Assembly (NCBI GenBank): GCA_903895595.1
Contig: CAITUP010000016.1
Location: 1-64,000 of the forward strand
DNA from: an uncultured Acetobacteraceae bacterium
GTDB taxonomy: Bacteria; Pseudomonadota; Alphaproteobacteria; Acetobacterales; Acetobacteraceae
DNA: 64,000 nucleotides
Direction: 5' to 3'
Position numbers and translations under genes: made by a program. Shown here one piece after another: positions 14,776 through 64,000 of this stretch; within the stretch, counting starts at the first letter, position 1, and each line of letters begins with the position of its first letter. Below the pieces are notes generated by a model. That model was not told where the DNA came from. It did not search any database and saw nothing but the letters and a program-made list of their open reading frames with translations.

Positions 14776-15300
14776 CTAGGTAAGCACGGATCGGCGCAAA
14801 TGCCGAACCACGATCGCCGCCAGGGCCTCGCACCCTTTCCGGTCGGTTTCGTCGAACCGGGCGAGATGCGGGCTGTCCATGTCCAGGACGCCCAGCAGCC
14901 GGTCCCCGTCCAGCAACGGCACGACCAGTTCGGAGCGAGACGCGGAATCGCAGGCGATGTGGCCGGGAAAGGCGTCGACGTCCGGCACGAGGATGGATTT
15001 TCCGGTTTCCGCCGATGTGCCGCAGACGCCCTTGCCGAGCGGAATGCGGACACAGGCGGGCTTGCCCTGGAAGGGACCGAGAACCAGTTCGCCGTCCCGC
15101 AGCAGGTAGAACCCGGCCCAATTGAGGCCGGGCAGGCTGTGATAAATCGCGGCGGCGGCGTTGGCCGCGTTGGCGGTTGGGTCGGATTCGTCGCTCAGCA
15201 GCGCGTCGAGCTCCGCCGCCAGGTCGGTGTACAGCGTTACCTTGTCGACCGGCGTGTGATCGCCAGCCGTCCAAGGGGCGGTATGGGTCGCGTCGTGCAT
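14776..15300 (-). CDS. msrC: Free methionine-(R)-sulfoxide reductase (GAF-domain)
   Basis: A 174-residue GAF-domain enzyme that reduces free methionine-R-sulfoxide. The three redox cysteines are all present with family spacing: Cys83 (GKPAC), Cys93 (GKGVCG) and Cys117 (HIACD). Surrounding blocks NWAGFYLL, LVLGPFQGKPAC and FPGHIACDSASRSELVVP match the family closely. It acts in cytoplasmic oxidative-damage repair, probably with thioredoxin. The MarR-type regulator directly upstream (4-base gap) may control it, possibly in response to oxidants. Confidence 0.93.
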   Translation of the reverse strand: MHDATHTAPWTAGDHTPVDKVTLYTDLAAELDALLSDESDPTANAANAAAAIYHSLPGLNWAGFYLLRDGELVLGPFQGKPACVRIPLGKGVCGTSAETGKSILVPDVDAFPGHIACDSASRSELVVPLLDGDRLLGVLDMDSPHLARFDETDRKGCEALAAIVVRHLRRSVLT

Positions 15301-56776: not shown

Positions 56777-57697
56777 ATGACCATCCTCCCGAGTCCGCAG
56801 CAGCTGCGCTACCTCGTCGCTCTGGCCGAAACGCGCCATTTCGGGCGTGCGGCTTTGGCATGCGCAGTGACCCAATCCACGCTCTCCGCCGGGTTACTGG
56901 CGCTGGAGCGCCAGCTCGATGCCCCGATCCTGGACCGAGCGGCCGGGCGGCATGTGGTGTTCACGCCGCTGGGGCTGGAACTGGTGGATCGCGCCCGCAC
57001 CGCCCTCGCGGCCTTGGAAGCGGTCAGCGAAGCCGCCGCCGCCGCCCGCGAACCGCTCTCCGGTCCGCTGCGATTCGGTGTCATCCCCACCATTGGGCCG
57101 TTCCTGCTGCCCCGGCTGATGCCCGCACTTCGGGCCGCCTTTCCCCGTCTGCGGTTGTATCTAAGAGAGGACACCACCGCCCGTCTCGTCGACCGGCTCG
57201 CCGCCAACCGCCTCGATCTGCTGCTGCTGGCGCTGCCCTGCGACTGCGGTGGCGCTGACGCGCTCCAAGTGGCCCGAGACAATTTCGTCGTCGCCCTGCC
57301 CCCGGACCACCGACTCGCGCGTGACGAAACCGTGCCGGTCAGCGCTCTGTCCAGCGAACGGCTGCTGCTGCTCGAGGACGGGCATTGCCTGCGCGATCAG
57401 GCGCTCGCGGTCTGCGGACTCTTGGCGGGCGAACGCGGCGACCAGGACGGGTTCGCCGCCACCAGCCTGCACACGCTGGTGCAGATGGTCGCGGGCGGGC
57501 TGGGCGTGACGCTGTTGCCGCGCCTCGCGGTCGCCGCCGGCATCGCCGAGGGCAGCGGCGTCGTCCTCCGCCCCCTGGAAGCGGCCGGGGCTTGGCGCAC
57601 GCTGGGTTTGGCATGGCGCCCCAACGCCCCCCGCGCCGCGGATTATCGAGCGCTGGCCGGGCGGCTGTCGGATGTGTGCCGGGACATGCTGGGCTGA
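56777..57697 (+). CDS. oxyR: LysR-type hydrogen peroxide regulator OxyR
   Basis: A 306-residue LysR regulator. The N-terminal helix-turn-helix (about 20-45, ACAVTQSTLSAGLLALERQL) is standard. The redox pair is Cys204 and Cys213 in DGHCLRDQALAVC, the exact spacing and context of E. coli Cys199/Cys208. It should form a disulfide on H2O2 exposure and activate defence genes. No catalase or peroxiredoxin gene is nearby in this window. It converges with the acyl-CoA synthetase, 4 bases apart. Confidence 0.93.
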   Translation: MTILPSPQQLRYLVALAETRHFGRAALACAVTQSTLSAGLLALERQLDAPILDRAAGRHVVFTPLGLELVDRARTALAALEAVSEAAAAAREPLSGPLRFGVIPTIGPFLLPRLMPALRAAFPRLRLYLREDTTARLVDRLAANRLDLLLLALPCDCGGADALQVARDNFVVALPPDHRLARDETVPVSALSSERLLLLEDGHCLRDQALAVCGLLAGERGDQDGFAATSLHTLVQMVAGGLGVTLLPRLAVAAGIAEGSGVVLRPLEAAGAWRTLGLAWRPNAPRAADYRALAGRLSDVCRDMLG

Positions 57698-59895: not shown

Positions 59896-60501
59896 ATGCA
59901 TTTCCTGCCGAATGAGCGCGTTGCACTGTTTATCGACGGGGCCAATCTGTATTCCGCGTCCAGAAATCTTGGGTTCGACGTGGATTACCGCAACCTTTTG
60001 GCGTATTTCCAAAAACGTGCACACACCATACGTGCATATTACTACTCTGCGGTGCTGGAAACCGAGGAATACTCACCCTTGAAGCCGCTCACCGACTGGC
60101 TGGCCTATAACGGCTACAGCCTGGTCACCAAGCCGGCGAAGGAATTCACCGACGCGACAGGCCGCCGCCGCGTGAAGGGCAACATGGACATCGAAATCGC
60201 GGTGGACATGCTGGAGCTGGCGCCGAAGCTGGATCACGTCGTGCTGTTCAGCGGCGATTCCGATTTCCGCCGGCTGGTGGAGGCGGTGCAGCGCATGGGT
60301 GTGCGGGTTTCGGTCGTGTCGTCGATCCGCACCAGCCCGCCGATGGTCGCCGATGAGCTGCGCCGGCAGGCGGATCAGTTCGTCGAGCTGTCCGACATTG
60401 CCCCCGAGTTTACCCGCAGGCAGACCGAACCGCGGCCGCGGCCCACGATGGCACGCAGCACACCGGCCGATCCGTTCGTCGACCCCCTCGATCAAGCGTG
60501 A
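59896..60501 (+). CDS. NYN-domain (LabA/DUF88) ribonuclease-like protein
   Basis: A 201-residue PIN-like NYN domain protein. The acidic active-site residues are in VALFIDGANLYSA (Asp14), NMDIEIAVDM, and VLFSGDSDFRRL, the three-cluster pattern of the LabA/DUF88 group. These are predicted RNases. The last 30 residues are a Pro/Arg-rich tail. Ribosome site AAGGTGG precedes the ATG. Its stop overlaps the GTG of the uracil-DNA glycosylase gene, linking an RNA-type nuclease with a DNA repair enzyme. Confidence 0.92.
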   Translation: MHFLPNERVALFIDGANLYSASRNLGFDVDYRNLLAYFQKRAHTIRAYYYSAVLETEEYSPLKPLTDWLAYNGYSLVTKPAKEFTDATGRRRVKGNMDIEIAVDMLELAPKLDHVVLFSGDSDFRRLVEAVQRMGVRVSVVSSIRTSPPMVADELRRQADQFVELSDIAPEFTRRQTEPRPRPTMARSTPADPFVDPLDQA

Positions 60502-61139
60502 GCCACGCCGAACCCGGCCGCGACTGCGCGCTGTGCCCGCGGCTGGTCGCCTACCGGCAGGCCAACCGCACCGCGAACCCCGATTGGTTCAATGGACCGG
60601 TCCCGAGTTTCGGGGCTTTGGACTCGCGCCTGCTGGTCGTGGGGTTGGCGCCGGGCGTGCGCGGGGCCAACCGCACAGGACGGCCGTTCACCGGCGATTT
60701 CGCGGGCGTTCTGCTCTATCAGACGCTGCTGAAATTCGGGCTGGCGACCGGTGCCTACGGCGCCAACGCGGCCGACGGCATGGGCTTGCACAATACCCGC
60801 GTCACCAACGCCGTGCGCTGCGTGCCGCCGGGCAACCTGCCGGTCCCGTTAGAGATCACCGCCTGCAATCCGTTTCTGGTCGCCGAACTGGCCGCCATGC
60901 CATCCGTTCGCGGCGTGCTGGCGCTGGGCGGCGTATCGCATAAGGCCGTGCTCCGTGCCCGAAGCCTGAAGGCCAGCCATGTGCCGTTCCAGCACGGCGT
61001 GCTGCACGAACTGCCGGATGGGTTTTTGCTCGCCGACAGCTACCACGTGTCGCGGCTGAACACGAACACCGGCCGCCTGACGACCCCGATGTTCGAGGCC
61101 GTGGTCGAAGCGTTGATCGCGCGTTTGGGGCTGCGTTAA
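60498..61139 (+). CDS. Family 5 (UDGb-type) uracil-DNA glycosylase
   Basis: A 213-residue iron-sulfur uracil-DNA glycosylase. Motif A is GLAPGVRGANRTGRPFTGD, motif B TNAVRCVPPGNLPVP, motif C DSYHVSRLNTNTGRLT, all of the family 5 (UDGb) type. Four cysteines (CALC at the N-terminus, RC in motif B, ITACNP) are placed for a 4Fe-4S cluster. UDGb removes uracil and other deaminated bases, helped by its lack of the usual polar catalytic Asn. GTG start overlaps the NYN stop. Confidence 0.92.
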   Translation: MSHAEPGRDCALCPRLVAYRQANRTANPDWFNGPVPSFGALDSRLLVVGLAPGVRGANRTGRPFTGDFAGVLLYQTLLKFGLATGAYGANAADGMGLHNTRVTNAVRCVPPGNLPVPLEITACNPFLVAELAAMPSVRGVLALGGVSHKAVLRARSLKASHVPFQHGVLHELPDGFLLADSYHVSRLNTNTGRLTTPMFEAVVEALIARLGLR

Positions 61140-61196: not shown

Positions 61197-63200
61197 ATGA
61201 CCGATTCCAAACACGTGAAACGACGCGATTTCCTGGCTGGAATGTCGCTGGCGCCCTTGGTCACGCCATGGATCGCACGCGCGGCCTACGCCCAAGACGC
61301 CAGGGCCACCGCACCCACCGATACCGCCATCGCTCGGCTCGCGGTCTATCCGCCTTTGGGCATCAGCCGGGTCGGAAACAGCGCGGAATGGTTCCTCGCC
61401 CCCGAAATTCCCGGCCTGCCGGCGGTGCGCGACGGCCGTTACAAGGACGGGTTGCAGCGCGTCAAAAAGCAGGTGCAACGGTTCCGCGTCTATGCCTTCA
61501 ACAAGGCGGGCGAGGTCATCCGCGAAATCACCGCCATGGACGCCAAGATCGAATGGACGGTGCATGTCGCCAATACCAAGGCGGCGTGGTACGGCTTCAA
61601 CAACCCCCTGGATAACGCCGACGTCGCACCCGGCCTGCCCGGTCAGAGGCGTAATCAGGCCGTGGTCGGGACGGACACGCGCGCCAAACAGCTCGTCATC
61701 GACCCCGGCCCCAAATCGGTCACGGGCACCGGCTTGAACCCCCACGGCAACGATCCCGCGTACGCCATGACCGGCAAATTCTGGCACAAGCTGGACGTGA
61801 CGCTGGGACATCTCGGCACCGACGATGCCGGACGCCTGCTGGTATTCCCCGGCAACGGCGTGTCGCGGTCGGCGGTGGACGACAACCCGATCACCAATTT
61901 CTCCGACAACGACGGCTGGCAGGACGATTGGTGCGACGGCGTCGTGCAGGCCAAGGTCACCCTGAACGGCGGTGCGGCGATGACCGCCGACAACGGCTGG
62001 GTCGCCTGTTGCGGACCGCATTTCGCGCCTGAGATTTATCCGTTCGTGTCGCTATACGAAGTCCTGACCGATGTCGCGATCGACGCGAACTGGATCGCCG
62101 CGCCGACGACGCCGTTGTCGTTCAGGAAATATATCTACCCGTTCTTCCGCCGCTTGGCGCTGATGGATTGGGTCGCCGCGGCGCAGAACCTCAGCGCCGG
62201 GTGGATCGGCGTCGGCAGTTTCGGCGATCCCGCCTTCATGGCCCGTCTGGCGGACCCGAGGCCGGAGAACAAACCGTTCCGGGAGCAGATTTTCGCGCTG
62301 TTCCGCAACCCGAACTCCAACGATCTGCAGCAGTTCAAACTGCCGTACATGTTGGGGGACGGCATCAATTACAGCGACTCCCCGGTACGCTGGTACCGTA
62401 TCGCGAAACAGCAATATCAGGTGCTGACTCAGTGGGCCGATGGCGCCTTCGTCAACGACCTCGGGGATGGTAGCCAGCCGGAGATTCCGGATTTCGGCAA
62501 AATCCCGATTGCGGAACAGCCGGATGCCCTGACACGGGCGGCGCTGGAACCCTGTTCCGGCGGCGCGTTCCACCCGGGCGTCGAGCTGACTTGGCCGTTA
62601 CGACATAAGGAGCTTTACAGCGGTCCCTACCGCATCGCGCTGTCGGACAAGCGATCCTCCGACCTGATCCAGGATTTGGGTCTGTTGCTGACGCCGGAAC
62701 GGGCGTTCGCCGGCACCGCAACGACGCCTCCCGCCATCGCGCCGCAAATGCCGGGCGATTTGACTCGCTGGATGGGGCTGCCCTGGCAATGCGATGCGTT
62801 CAGCTGTCAGCAGGTGGTGTTCTCCAACGATTTCCCCAACGCCACCTGGTGGCCGGCGTCGTTGCCGATCGATATTCTGCCCGAAGCGTTTTACAAGGTC
62901 GTGATGGACCCGGCTCAACCGGCCGACCAACGGGTGAAATTCTTCCAAAACCGCGTCGCATGGTCGCGCGGCGTCGCCGGCATCGGCTATCACGCCGAAG
63001 CCAGCTACAACGACGGTCTGAACCAGATGATCTACCTCTGGGATCGCATGGGCTTCGTCGTGCGCCGCCCAGGACCGACCGACCCGGACCGTCCGCCATC
63101 GGTTCCGAAGGAGATGTTCGTGGAGGTCGATCGCGGCTCGATGGATCTATCCTCCGGTCCCGTCGTGCCTAAGCCGCCGCCGCACAAAGTCATCCGCTAA
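61197..63200 (+). CDS. LodA-like CTQ-dependent amino-acid oxidase with Tat leader
   Basis: A 667-residue LodA/GoxA-family protein. Residues 1-33 form a twin-arginine leader (KRRDFLAGMSLAP ... AYAQD). The rest matches the family: AVYPPLGISRVGNS, WFLAPEIPG, the C-terminal block DLTRWMGLPWQCDAFSCQ (522-538), FPNATWWPASLP. Cys453 in EPCSGGAFHPGVE and a tryptophan near 525-530 are candidates for the cysteine-tryptophylquinone cross-link by analogy with LodA Cys516/Trp581. The family oxidises lysine, glycine or other amino acids to aldehyde, ammonia and H2O2. The next gene encodes the flavoprotein needed to make the cofactor. Confidence 0.87.
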   Translation: MTDSKHVKRRDFLAGMSLAPLVTPWIARAAYAQDARATAPTDTAIARLAVYPPLGISRVGNSAEWFLAPEIPGLPAVRDGRYKDGLQRVKKQVQRFRVYAFNKAGEVIREITAMDAKIEWTVHVANTKAAWYGFNNPLDNADVAPGLPGQRRNQAVVGTDTRAKQLVIDPGPKSVTGTGLNPHGNDPAYAMTGKFWHKLDVTLGHLGTDDAGRLLVFPGNGVSRSAVDDNPITNFSDNDGWQDDWCDGVVQAKVTLNGGAAMTADNGWVACCGPHFAPEIYPFVSLYEVLTDVAIDANWIAAPTTPLSFRKYIYPFFRRLALMDWVAAAQNLSAGWIGVGSFGDPAFMARLADPRPENKPFREQIFALFRNPNSNDLQQFKLPYMLGDGINYSDSPVRWYRIAKQQYQVLTQWADGAFVNDLGDGSQPEIPDFGKIPIAEQPDALTRAALEPCSGGAFHPGVELTWPLRHKELYSGPYRIALSDKRSSDLIQDLGLLLTPERAFAGTATTPPAIAPQMPGDLTRWMGLPWQCDAFSCQQVVFSNDFPNATWWPASLPIDILPEAFYKVVMDPAQPADQRVKFFQNRVAWSRGVAGIGYHAEASYNDGLNQMIYLWDRMGFVVRRPGPTDPDRPPSVPKEMFVEVDRGSMDLSSGPVVPKPPPHKVIR

Positions 63201-63203
63201 GCG

Positions 63204-64000
63204 GTGGCGGCGACCGCCGATATCGCGATAATCGGGGCCGGCATCGCGGGATGCGCCGCCGCGTTAACTCTTGCCAACAGCGGTTTGTCGGTCGCCATGA
63301 TCGCACCGCCGCCGGACGGTCGCGACAGGATCGGCGAATTCCTGTCGCCGGCCGGTAATGCGATTCTGCGGGACCTCGGTCTGGCCGAGGCCTTCGCCGC
63401 CGGCCCGCACCGGGAGGCCAATGCCACCTTTGCGTCCTGGGGCAGCGAATTGCTGGCCCCGCGCAATGCCATCGTGCATGTGGAAGGGCCAGGCCACGTG
63501 CTGGACCGTCCGGCGTTCGAGCGCATGTTGCGGGACGCGGTGGAATGTTCGGTTGTCGCCGCCACCGTCGATGACGCCGCGTTCGAAGACGGGCGATGGT
63601 CGTTACGACTTTCGGACGGCACGTCTTTAACAGCCCGTTTCGTTCTGGATTGTTCGGGCAGGGCCGGTGTGCTCGGCAAGCGGCGGCGGGTCGACCGGCT
63701 GGTTGCAGCCTACGGGTTCCTGCACCAATACAATGACGACGTGGAACCGACGCCCGCGACGCTGATCGAAGCGGTTGCCTCGGGCTGGTGGTATGCGAGC
63801 CTGTTGCCGGACCGGCGCCTGTCCCTCGCCTTTTTCGCCGATCCCGACACCATGCCGCGCCGTATCTCCCACGATACCGGGATATGGCTGGGGCATATCG
63901 AGCAAACGCGATTCATCCGGCAATGGCTGGAAAGCGCCTGTTACCGGGTCGGTGCGCCACCGGTCCTGACAAGTGCCGGAACGACCTGGCTGGACCCGCC
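63204..64000 (+). CDS. LodB-like FAD-dependent oxidoreductase (partial, runs off window end)
   Basis: An open frame with GTG start 3 bases after the LodA-like stop, reaching the window end without stop (265 codons). It begins ADIAIIGAGIAGCAAALTLANSG, the FAD Rossmann motif, and contains GEFLSPAGNAILRDLGL, VLDRPAFERMLRDA and a second conserved FVLDCSGRAG, as in LodB and tryptophan-halogenase-like flavoproteins. LodB-type proteins are needed for CTQ formation in their partner LodA. The gene continues beyond the window, so its end is unknown. Confidence 0.85.
   Translation, partial: MAATADIAIIGAGIAGCAAALTLANSGLSVAMIAPPPDGRDRIGEFLSPAGNAILRDLGLAEAFAAGPHREANATFASWGSELLAPRNAIVHVEGPGHVLDRPAFERMLRDAVECSVVAATVDDAAFEDGRWSLRLSDGTSLTARFVLDCSGRAGVLGKRRRVDRLVAAYGFLHQYNDDVEPTPATLIEAVASGWWYASLLPDRRLSLAFFADPDTMPRRISHDTGIWLGHIEQTRFIRQWLESACYRVGAPPVLTSAGTTWLDP

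Follow-up and report, generated by a model that had tools for sequence, protein, structure and literature searches.

The last two genes of the window, by which we mean the whole stretch of 64,000 nucleotides analyzed here (part of contig C16 in a genome of 5.46 Mb and 170 contigs), very probably form a goxA–goxB operon, in which GoxB assists formation of the cysteine tryptophylquinone (CTQ) cofactor of GoxA, folded GoxA is exported by the twin-arginine translocation (Tat) pathway and glycine is oxidized outside the cytoplasm. The gene pair, its membership of curated models, the cofactor and active-site residues, the conserved RR leader and the TatC gene were all computed here. The pair is an ordinary member of the named GoxA–GoxB family, with published leader and partner, and the described family gains by it one further predicted exported glycine oxidase plus maturase.

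Identity of the gene pair and its predicted substrate

The oxidase gene, goxA, is an ATG-started open reading frame at 61,197–63,200 on the forward strand and encodes a CTQ-dependent glycine oxidase precursor of 667 residues. The flavoprotein gene, goxB, begins on the same strand with a GTG at 63,204, 3 bases past the oxidase stop, a spacing which the first-pass annotation of this DNA had reported and which the reading frame coordinates bear out. The goxB frame is still open at the window end, so that 63,204–64,000 holds the first 265 of its 358 residues; the search beyond position 64,000 which that annotation had proposed placed the end of the flavoprotein at contig position 64,280 (L003:5205-6281). 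Upstream of goxA, and in the same orientation, lies a uracil-DNA glycosylase gene (60,498–61,139), and downstream a frame which by eye is metallophosphoesterase-like overlaps the end of goxB on the opposite strand (L003:6260-6859). With these neighbors, the downstream one being on the other strand, the operon probably consists of goxA and goxB alone.

The oxidase was matched by the Pfam domains LodA_N (3.4e-67) and LodA_C (1e-35), in agreement with the original family call of a LodA-like quinoprotein. When analyzed with the NCBIfam equivalog models it scored 1044.8 bits against GoxA (NF038173), above the cut-off of 750, and the full flavoprotein scored 458.9 bits against GoxB (NF038174), above the cut-off of 400, which upholds the earlier description of the partner as a LodB-like flavoprotein. 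The full flavoprotein fell below the cut-offs for both LodB (186.9 versus 400 bits) and QhpG (174.8 versus 240 bits). Among its best PDB matches were flavin-dependent halogenases (top match 3e-12), with the peptidyl tryptophan dihydroxylase 7ctq in fourth place (5.1e-10), which we take to be a CTQ maturase of the QhpG type. This type of maturase has been described (PMC7876137).

It was suggested by the title of the first-pass annotation that the oxidase could be a LodA-type lysine epsilon-oxidase. We consider this extremely improbable, for although the LodA_N and LodA_C domains are held in common, the oxidase reached only 203.4 bits against the LodA equivalog model with its cut-off of 600, a result that rules out LodA as the specific identity, and the LodB score of the partner points the same way. 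With respect to solved structures, GoxA chains were matched at 9.6e-72 (6byw) to 4.3e-69, and LodA at 1.2e-31 and 2.4e-31. Compared with Marinomonas mediterranea LodA (2ymw and 3weu, presumably both from that organism), the window protein shares the two Pfam domains and the predicted CTQ chemistry but lies far under the LodA equivalog cut-off. The substrate had earlier been left open; from the over-cut-off membership of the two proteins in the GoxA and GoxB equivalog families, glycine is the predicted substrate of the window oxidase.

Cofactor site and relatives

The oxidase was aligned with GoxA chain 6byw, presumably from Pseudoalteromonas luteoviolacea. In the PDB alignment the window motif WQCDAFSCQQVVFSNDFPNATWW lay on WQSDAASCQAVYTPEDFPIPSWW of the solved chain, and by counting from the printed alignment Asp533 (62,793–62,795), Cys537 (62,805–62,807) and Trp552 (62,850–62,852) fall on residues 678, 682 and 697 of the chain, the latter two of which we take to be the CTQ pair of solved GoxA. 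Alignment to a solved GoxA was the check that had been proposed for placing this pair, and both residues are present, with Cys537 as the predicted CTQ cysteine and Trp552 as the predicted CTQ tryptophan. The residues named at first as candidates, Cys453 and Trp525 or Trp530, do exist, but as a CTQ pair they are ruled out by this alignment. In a 29-row alignment Cys453 was replaced by Leu in two members of the clade, L027 and L032, and Trp525 and Trp530 were both conserved across the GoxA-clade rows with letters at those positions. Cys537, Trp552 and Asp533 were invariant in 26 of the 29 rows, which are all those with letters there, the other three (L033, L035 and L038) being cut or broken at the cofactor positions.

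His459 (62,571–62,573) aligned with chain residue 583 and His599 (62,991–62,993) with the histidine of the GYHAE motif in solved GoxA, so that the active-site Cys, Trp, Asp and two His of the P. luteoviolacea enzyme (6byw and its variants) are all kept in the window protein. Among the PDB sequences matched, some are unlike others at one of three positions, the Asp and the two His, as would be expected for deposited active-site mutants. Asp678 is discussed in the literature, in a passage according to which its mutation leaves CTQ formation in GoxA not abolished (PMC7876137).

Genomes were scanned with two peptide patterns taken from the GoxA clade, a procedure which favors close kin and whose counts are no census. 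At least 26 loci were recovered, at least 23 of the GoxA clade with 51–72% identity and at least 3 actinobacterial with 33–34%. Among the matches listed, a GoxB-like frame followed goxA on the same strand at 21 of 23 GoxA-clade loci, and the two loci that had no such frame (L033 and L035) end inside goxA. The partner frame was short in L028 (185 residues) and L038 (291 residues). The goxA frames of L034 and L038, from two metagenome-assembled genomes (MAGs), were interrupted, by decay or assembly error. The actinobacterial loci L036, L037 and L040 hold LodA-like frames of 983–1067 residues with a LodB-like gene on the opposite strand; an opposite orientation has been reported in Actinoplanes globisporus (PMC4417212).

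Within the same class the GoxA model was matched at E 0.001 or better in 13 of 385 genomes and its cut-off was passed in four of the 385, and among 59 related genomes eight had a LodA_C match, the window's own genome being included in the last two counts. LodA-like genes have been reported in 3.00% of alphaproteobacterial genomes (PMC4417212). Contig C76 of the genome studied here carries another LodA-like pair, a more distant one (L004:5411-8424). Its oxidase reached 393.5 bits against the GoxA model, for which the cut-off is 750, and its partner 231.5 bits against the GoxB model, for which it is 400. In the 29-row alignment this oxidase keeps the CTQ Cys and Trp positions. The GoxA-model match at this locus starts 33 bases before the open frame and crosses one TAA.

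In a 27-row tree, midpoint-rooted for display, the window protein fell in a 21-row group with 100/100 support. Proteins of named alphaproteobacteria also fall there, those of Thalassobaculum litoreum and T. fulvum among them, together with one from an uncultured Marinomonas. The rows exclude characterized LodA or GoxA, the cut or broken sequences (L033, L034, L035 and L038) and five of the 10 LodA_C places found in related genomes (L005, L006, L008, L011 and L014), and long branches meeting at the paralogue were flagged by the tool. Within the large group the window protein clustered with L015, L016, L017 and L031 (97/94). L016, whose GoxA shows 65% identity, comes from a bog MAG that carries the label Candidatus Eremiobacterota. 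Its contig measures 397 kb, and the placement reflects either cross-phylum gene transfer or a binning error.

The separate five-row subgroup bears on whether glycine is the substrate, as a GoxA-like branch with the same cofactor and export could have changed its specificity to another primary amine or amino acid. We know of no assayed enzyme in this subgroup, and the GoxA score of the window protein is lower than that of the uncultured Marinomonas relative (L022, 1218.2 bits), so that drift in substrate is possible; a difference in activity between groups of LodA-like proteins has also been put forward as possible (PMC4417212). Against this, the window protein passes the glycine oxidase equivalog cut-off by about 295 bits, and His459, Asp533 and His599 are the same as in solved GoxA. 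A changed specificity is, on this evidence, rather unlikely, and glycine remains the preferred prediction.

Leader, maturation and export

The oxidase begins with the leader MTDSKHVKRRDFLAGMSLAPLVTPWIARAAYAQ (residues 1–33, 61,197–61,295 on the forward strand, with the end set by eye), which was called as Tat-type by its motif. It holds KRRDFL at residues 8–13, after which come a stretch of moderate hydrophobicity and alanine-rich cleavage-like sites. The pattern [STK].?RR.F[LIV] occurred within the first 40 residues in 0.05% of 20,000 whole-protein shuffles. Among the matches listed in the genome scan, RRDFL was found near the N-terminus at 23 of 23 GoxA-clade loci (in 22 the script detected it, and in L034 it was read from the raw frame), and it was also present in L012. 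The RR leader singled out in the first-pass annotation is thus real and is kept among GoxA-clade relatives. The script did not find the RR motif in actinobacterial L036 and L037; for L040, whose start is uncertain, the first 60 residues of the open frame were scanned. RRDFL was likewise absent from the same-genome paralogue (L004:5411-7333), the open frame of which begins merely five codons earlier. One TatC match was found in the genome, at 240.3 bits.

The novelty that had been suggested for this leader does not hold, as a Tat leader was reported for M. mediterranea GoxA in 2013 (PMC3948610) and for the LodA-like proteins of groups IIA and IIB in 2015 (Campillo-Brocal et al. 2015, PMC4417212). 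The M. mediterranea pair, Marme_1655/Marme_1654, resembles the window pair in having both the Tat leader and a LodB-like gene directly downstream, and its GoxA, an oxidase of the LodA family, acts on glycine (PMC3948610), whereas the activity of the window pair is predicted from sequence. The Marinomonas entry in our alignments is the uncultured relative (L022, 53% identity) and not M. mediterranea itself. In group II the motif is described as missing from three unclustered proteins and present in all others (PMC4417212). Its KRRDFL gives the window protein this group II trait, and we saw no difference between it and the group IIA and IIB proteins, as far as the published account of them goes (PMC4417212). 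Members of groups IIA and IIB named there include T. salexigens and M. mediterranea (PMC4417212), of genera that are also represented in our tree group, the sequences of that paper lying outside the tree. In contrast to the window protein, the crystallized P. luteoviolacea chain has no room for a leader, its alignment starting at residue 6 of 816.

For the cofactor chemistry, the glycine substrate, the export route and maturation before export, the proposed mechanism draws on the known family. GoxA would be translated in the cytoplasm with its twin-arginine leader, and Cys537 and Trp552 would be converted to cysteine tryptophylquinone, a maturation for which the flavoprotein GoxB, itself without evident leader, would be needed. 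The Tat pathway would then export the folded enzyme. Once in the periplasm or outside the cell, GoxA would oxidize glycine, yielding glyoxylate, ammonia and hydrogen peroxide.

Because GoxA has a Tat-type leader and GoxB has none that is evident, cytoplasmic maturation ahead of export, as proposed in the first-pass annotation, remains the most reasonable order of events. An RR leader was not found in the GoxB sequence. The hydrophobic stretch that GoxB does have (peak mean Kyte-Doolittle value of 1.86, for a 19-residue span that starts at residue 7) is taken to be the strand that opens the FAD fold, with GAGIAG, and not a leader. Tat transports folded proteins, which together with the leaderless GoxB argues against export first and completion of the cofactor outside the cytoplasm. 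That order does have parallels, as the TTQ of methylamine dehydrogenase is formed after export, and the last CTQ oxidation in another CTQ enzyme, QHNDH, is suggested to follow export; the related maturase QhpG, however, acts in the cytoplasm (PMC7876137). By analogy alone either order may hold in GoxA, and part of its maturation could follow export since the last oxidation of QHNDH may do so. As regards the Trp of LodA and GoxA, the view reported is that its first hydroxyl arises by autocatalysis and its second in the maturase step (PMC7876137). Taking these points together we regard export before cofactor completion as improbable, and maturation in the cytoplasm is the preferred reading. The pair offers a clean test of whether or not CTQ is formed before Tat export.

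Genes near the pair in the window and in relatives

The first-pass annotation had linked an extracellular peroxide-producing amino-acid oxidase to antibacterial or biofilm roles, and had added that OxyR and a methionine sulfoxide reductase are also encoded in the window. The gene concerned at 56,777–57,697 is of the LysR type and has OxyR as its best model, but at 247.4 bits it falls below the cut-off of 329; it lies about 3.5 kb upstream of goxA, with other genes between. To this extent the mention of OxyR is fair. The one sulfoxide reductase candidate that was examined, picked by eye (14,776–15,300), which lies about 46 kb from goxA–goxB, matched no NCBIfam family. Both genes are kilobases away and outside the operon, and the genes adjacent to the pair are others, so that a functional unit with OxyR or methionine sulfoxide reductase is unsupported. 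An antibacterial or biofilm role is plausible in view of what is published on the family and has no local support.

To compare neighbors, the flanks of 26 loci (the window and L015–L039) were analyzed using frames of at least 90 residues and a threshold of E 1e-8. Under these settings no flank gene was common to the window locus and the other loci. Beyond shadow frames or close kin there were four three-locus sets, which reduce to two. In one of these a RidA-family gene (PF01042) lies directly behind goxB, at L021:7189-7641, L025:7151-7612 and L026:7229-7690, the loci being from Devosia, Roseibium and Lamprobacter. By eye the RidA-family products start with an export-like leader, and the GoxA proteins of these three loci form one group (100/100) spanning alpha- and gammaproteobacteria. 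RidA proteins hydrolyze imines, which amino-acid oxidases are expected to produce, and an exported oxidase and an exported imine hydrolase may thus cooperate. The occurrence of RidA together with GoxA was not found in the literature, among the matches listed.

A further suggestion, which we offer tentatively and consider possible but doubtful, is that Tat serves as a cofactor checkpoint through which only folded, quinone-bearing GoxA is exported, with the operon of the sister branch adding an exported RidA-family protein that would act on the imine formed by the oxidase. If this were true, the peroxide source would stay inactive until it is outside the cell.

An epoxide-hydrolase-like frame (by eye), together with nearby frames, was observed near goxAB at L019:3534-4742, L027:2818-3753 and L032:2942-3724, the hosts being a Salinarimonas MAG and two Thalassobaculaceae. 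Another flank set was common to L028, L030 and L038. Sets found at two loci include, by eye, a LysR-type gene (L022 and L029) and a transporter-like gene (L021 and L035). Long shared stretches were seen between the close kin L017 and L031, L027 and L032, and L028 and L038.
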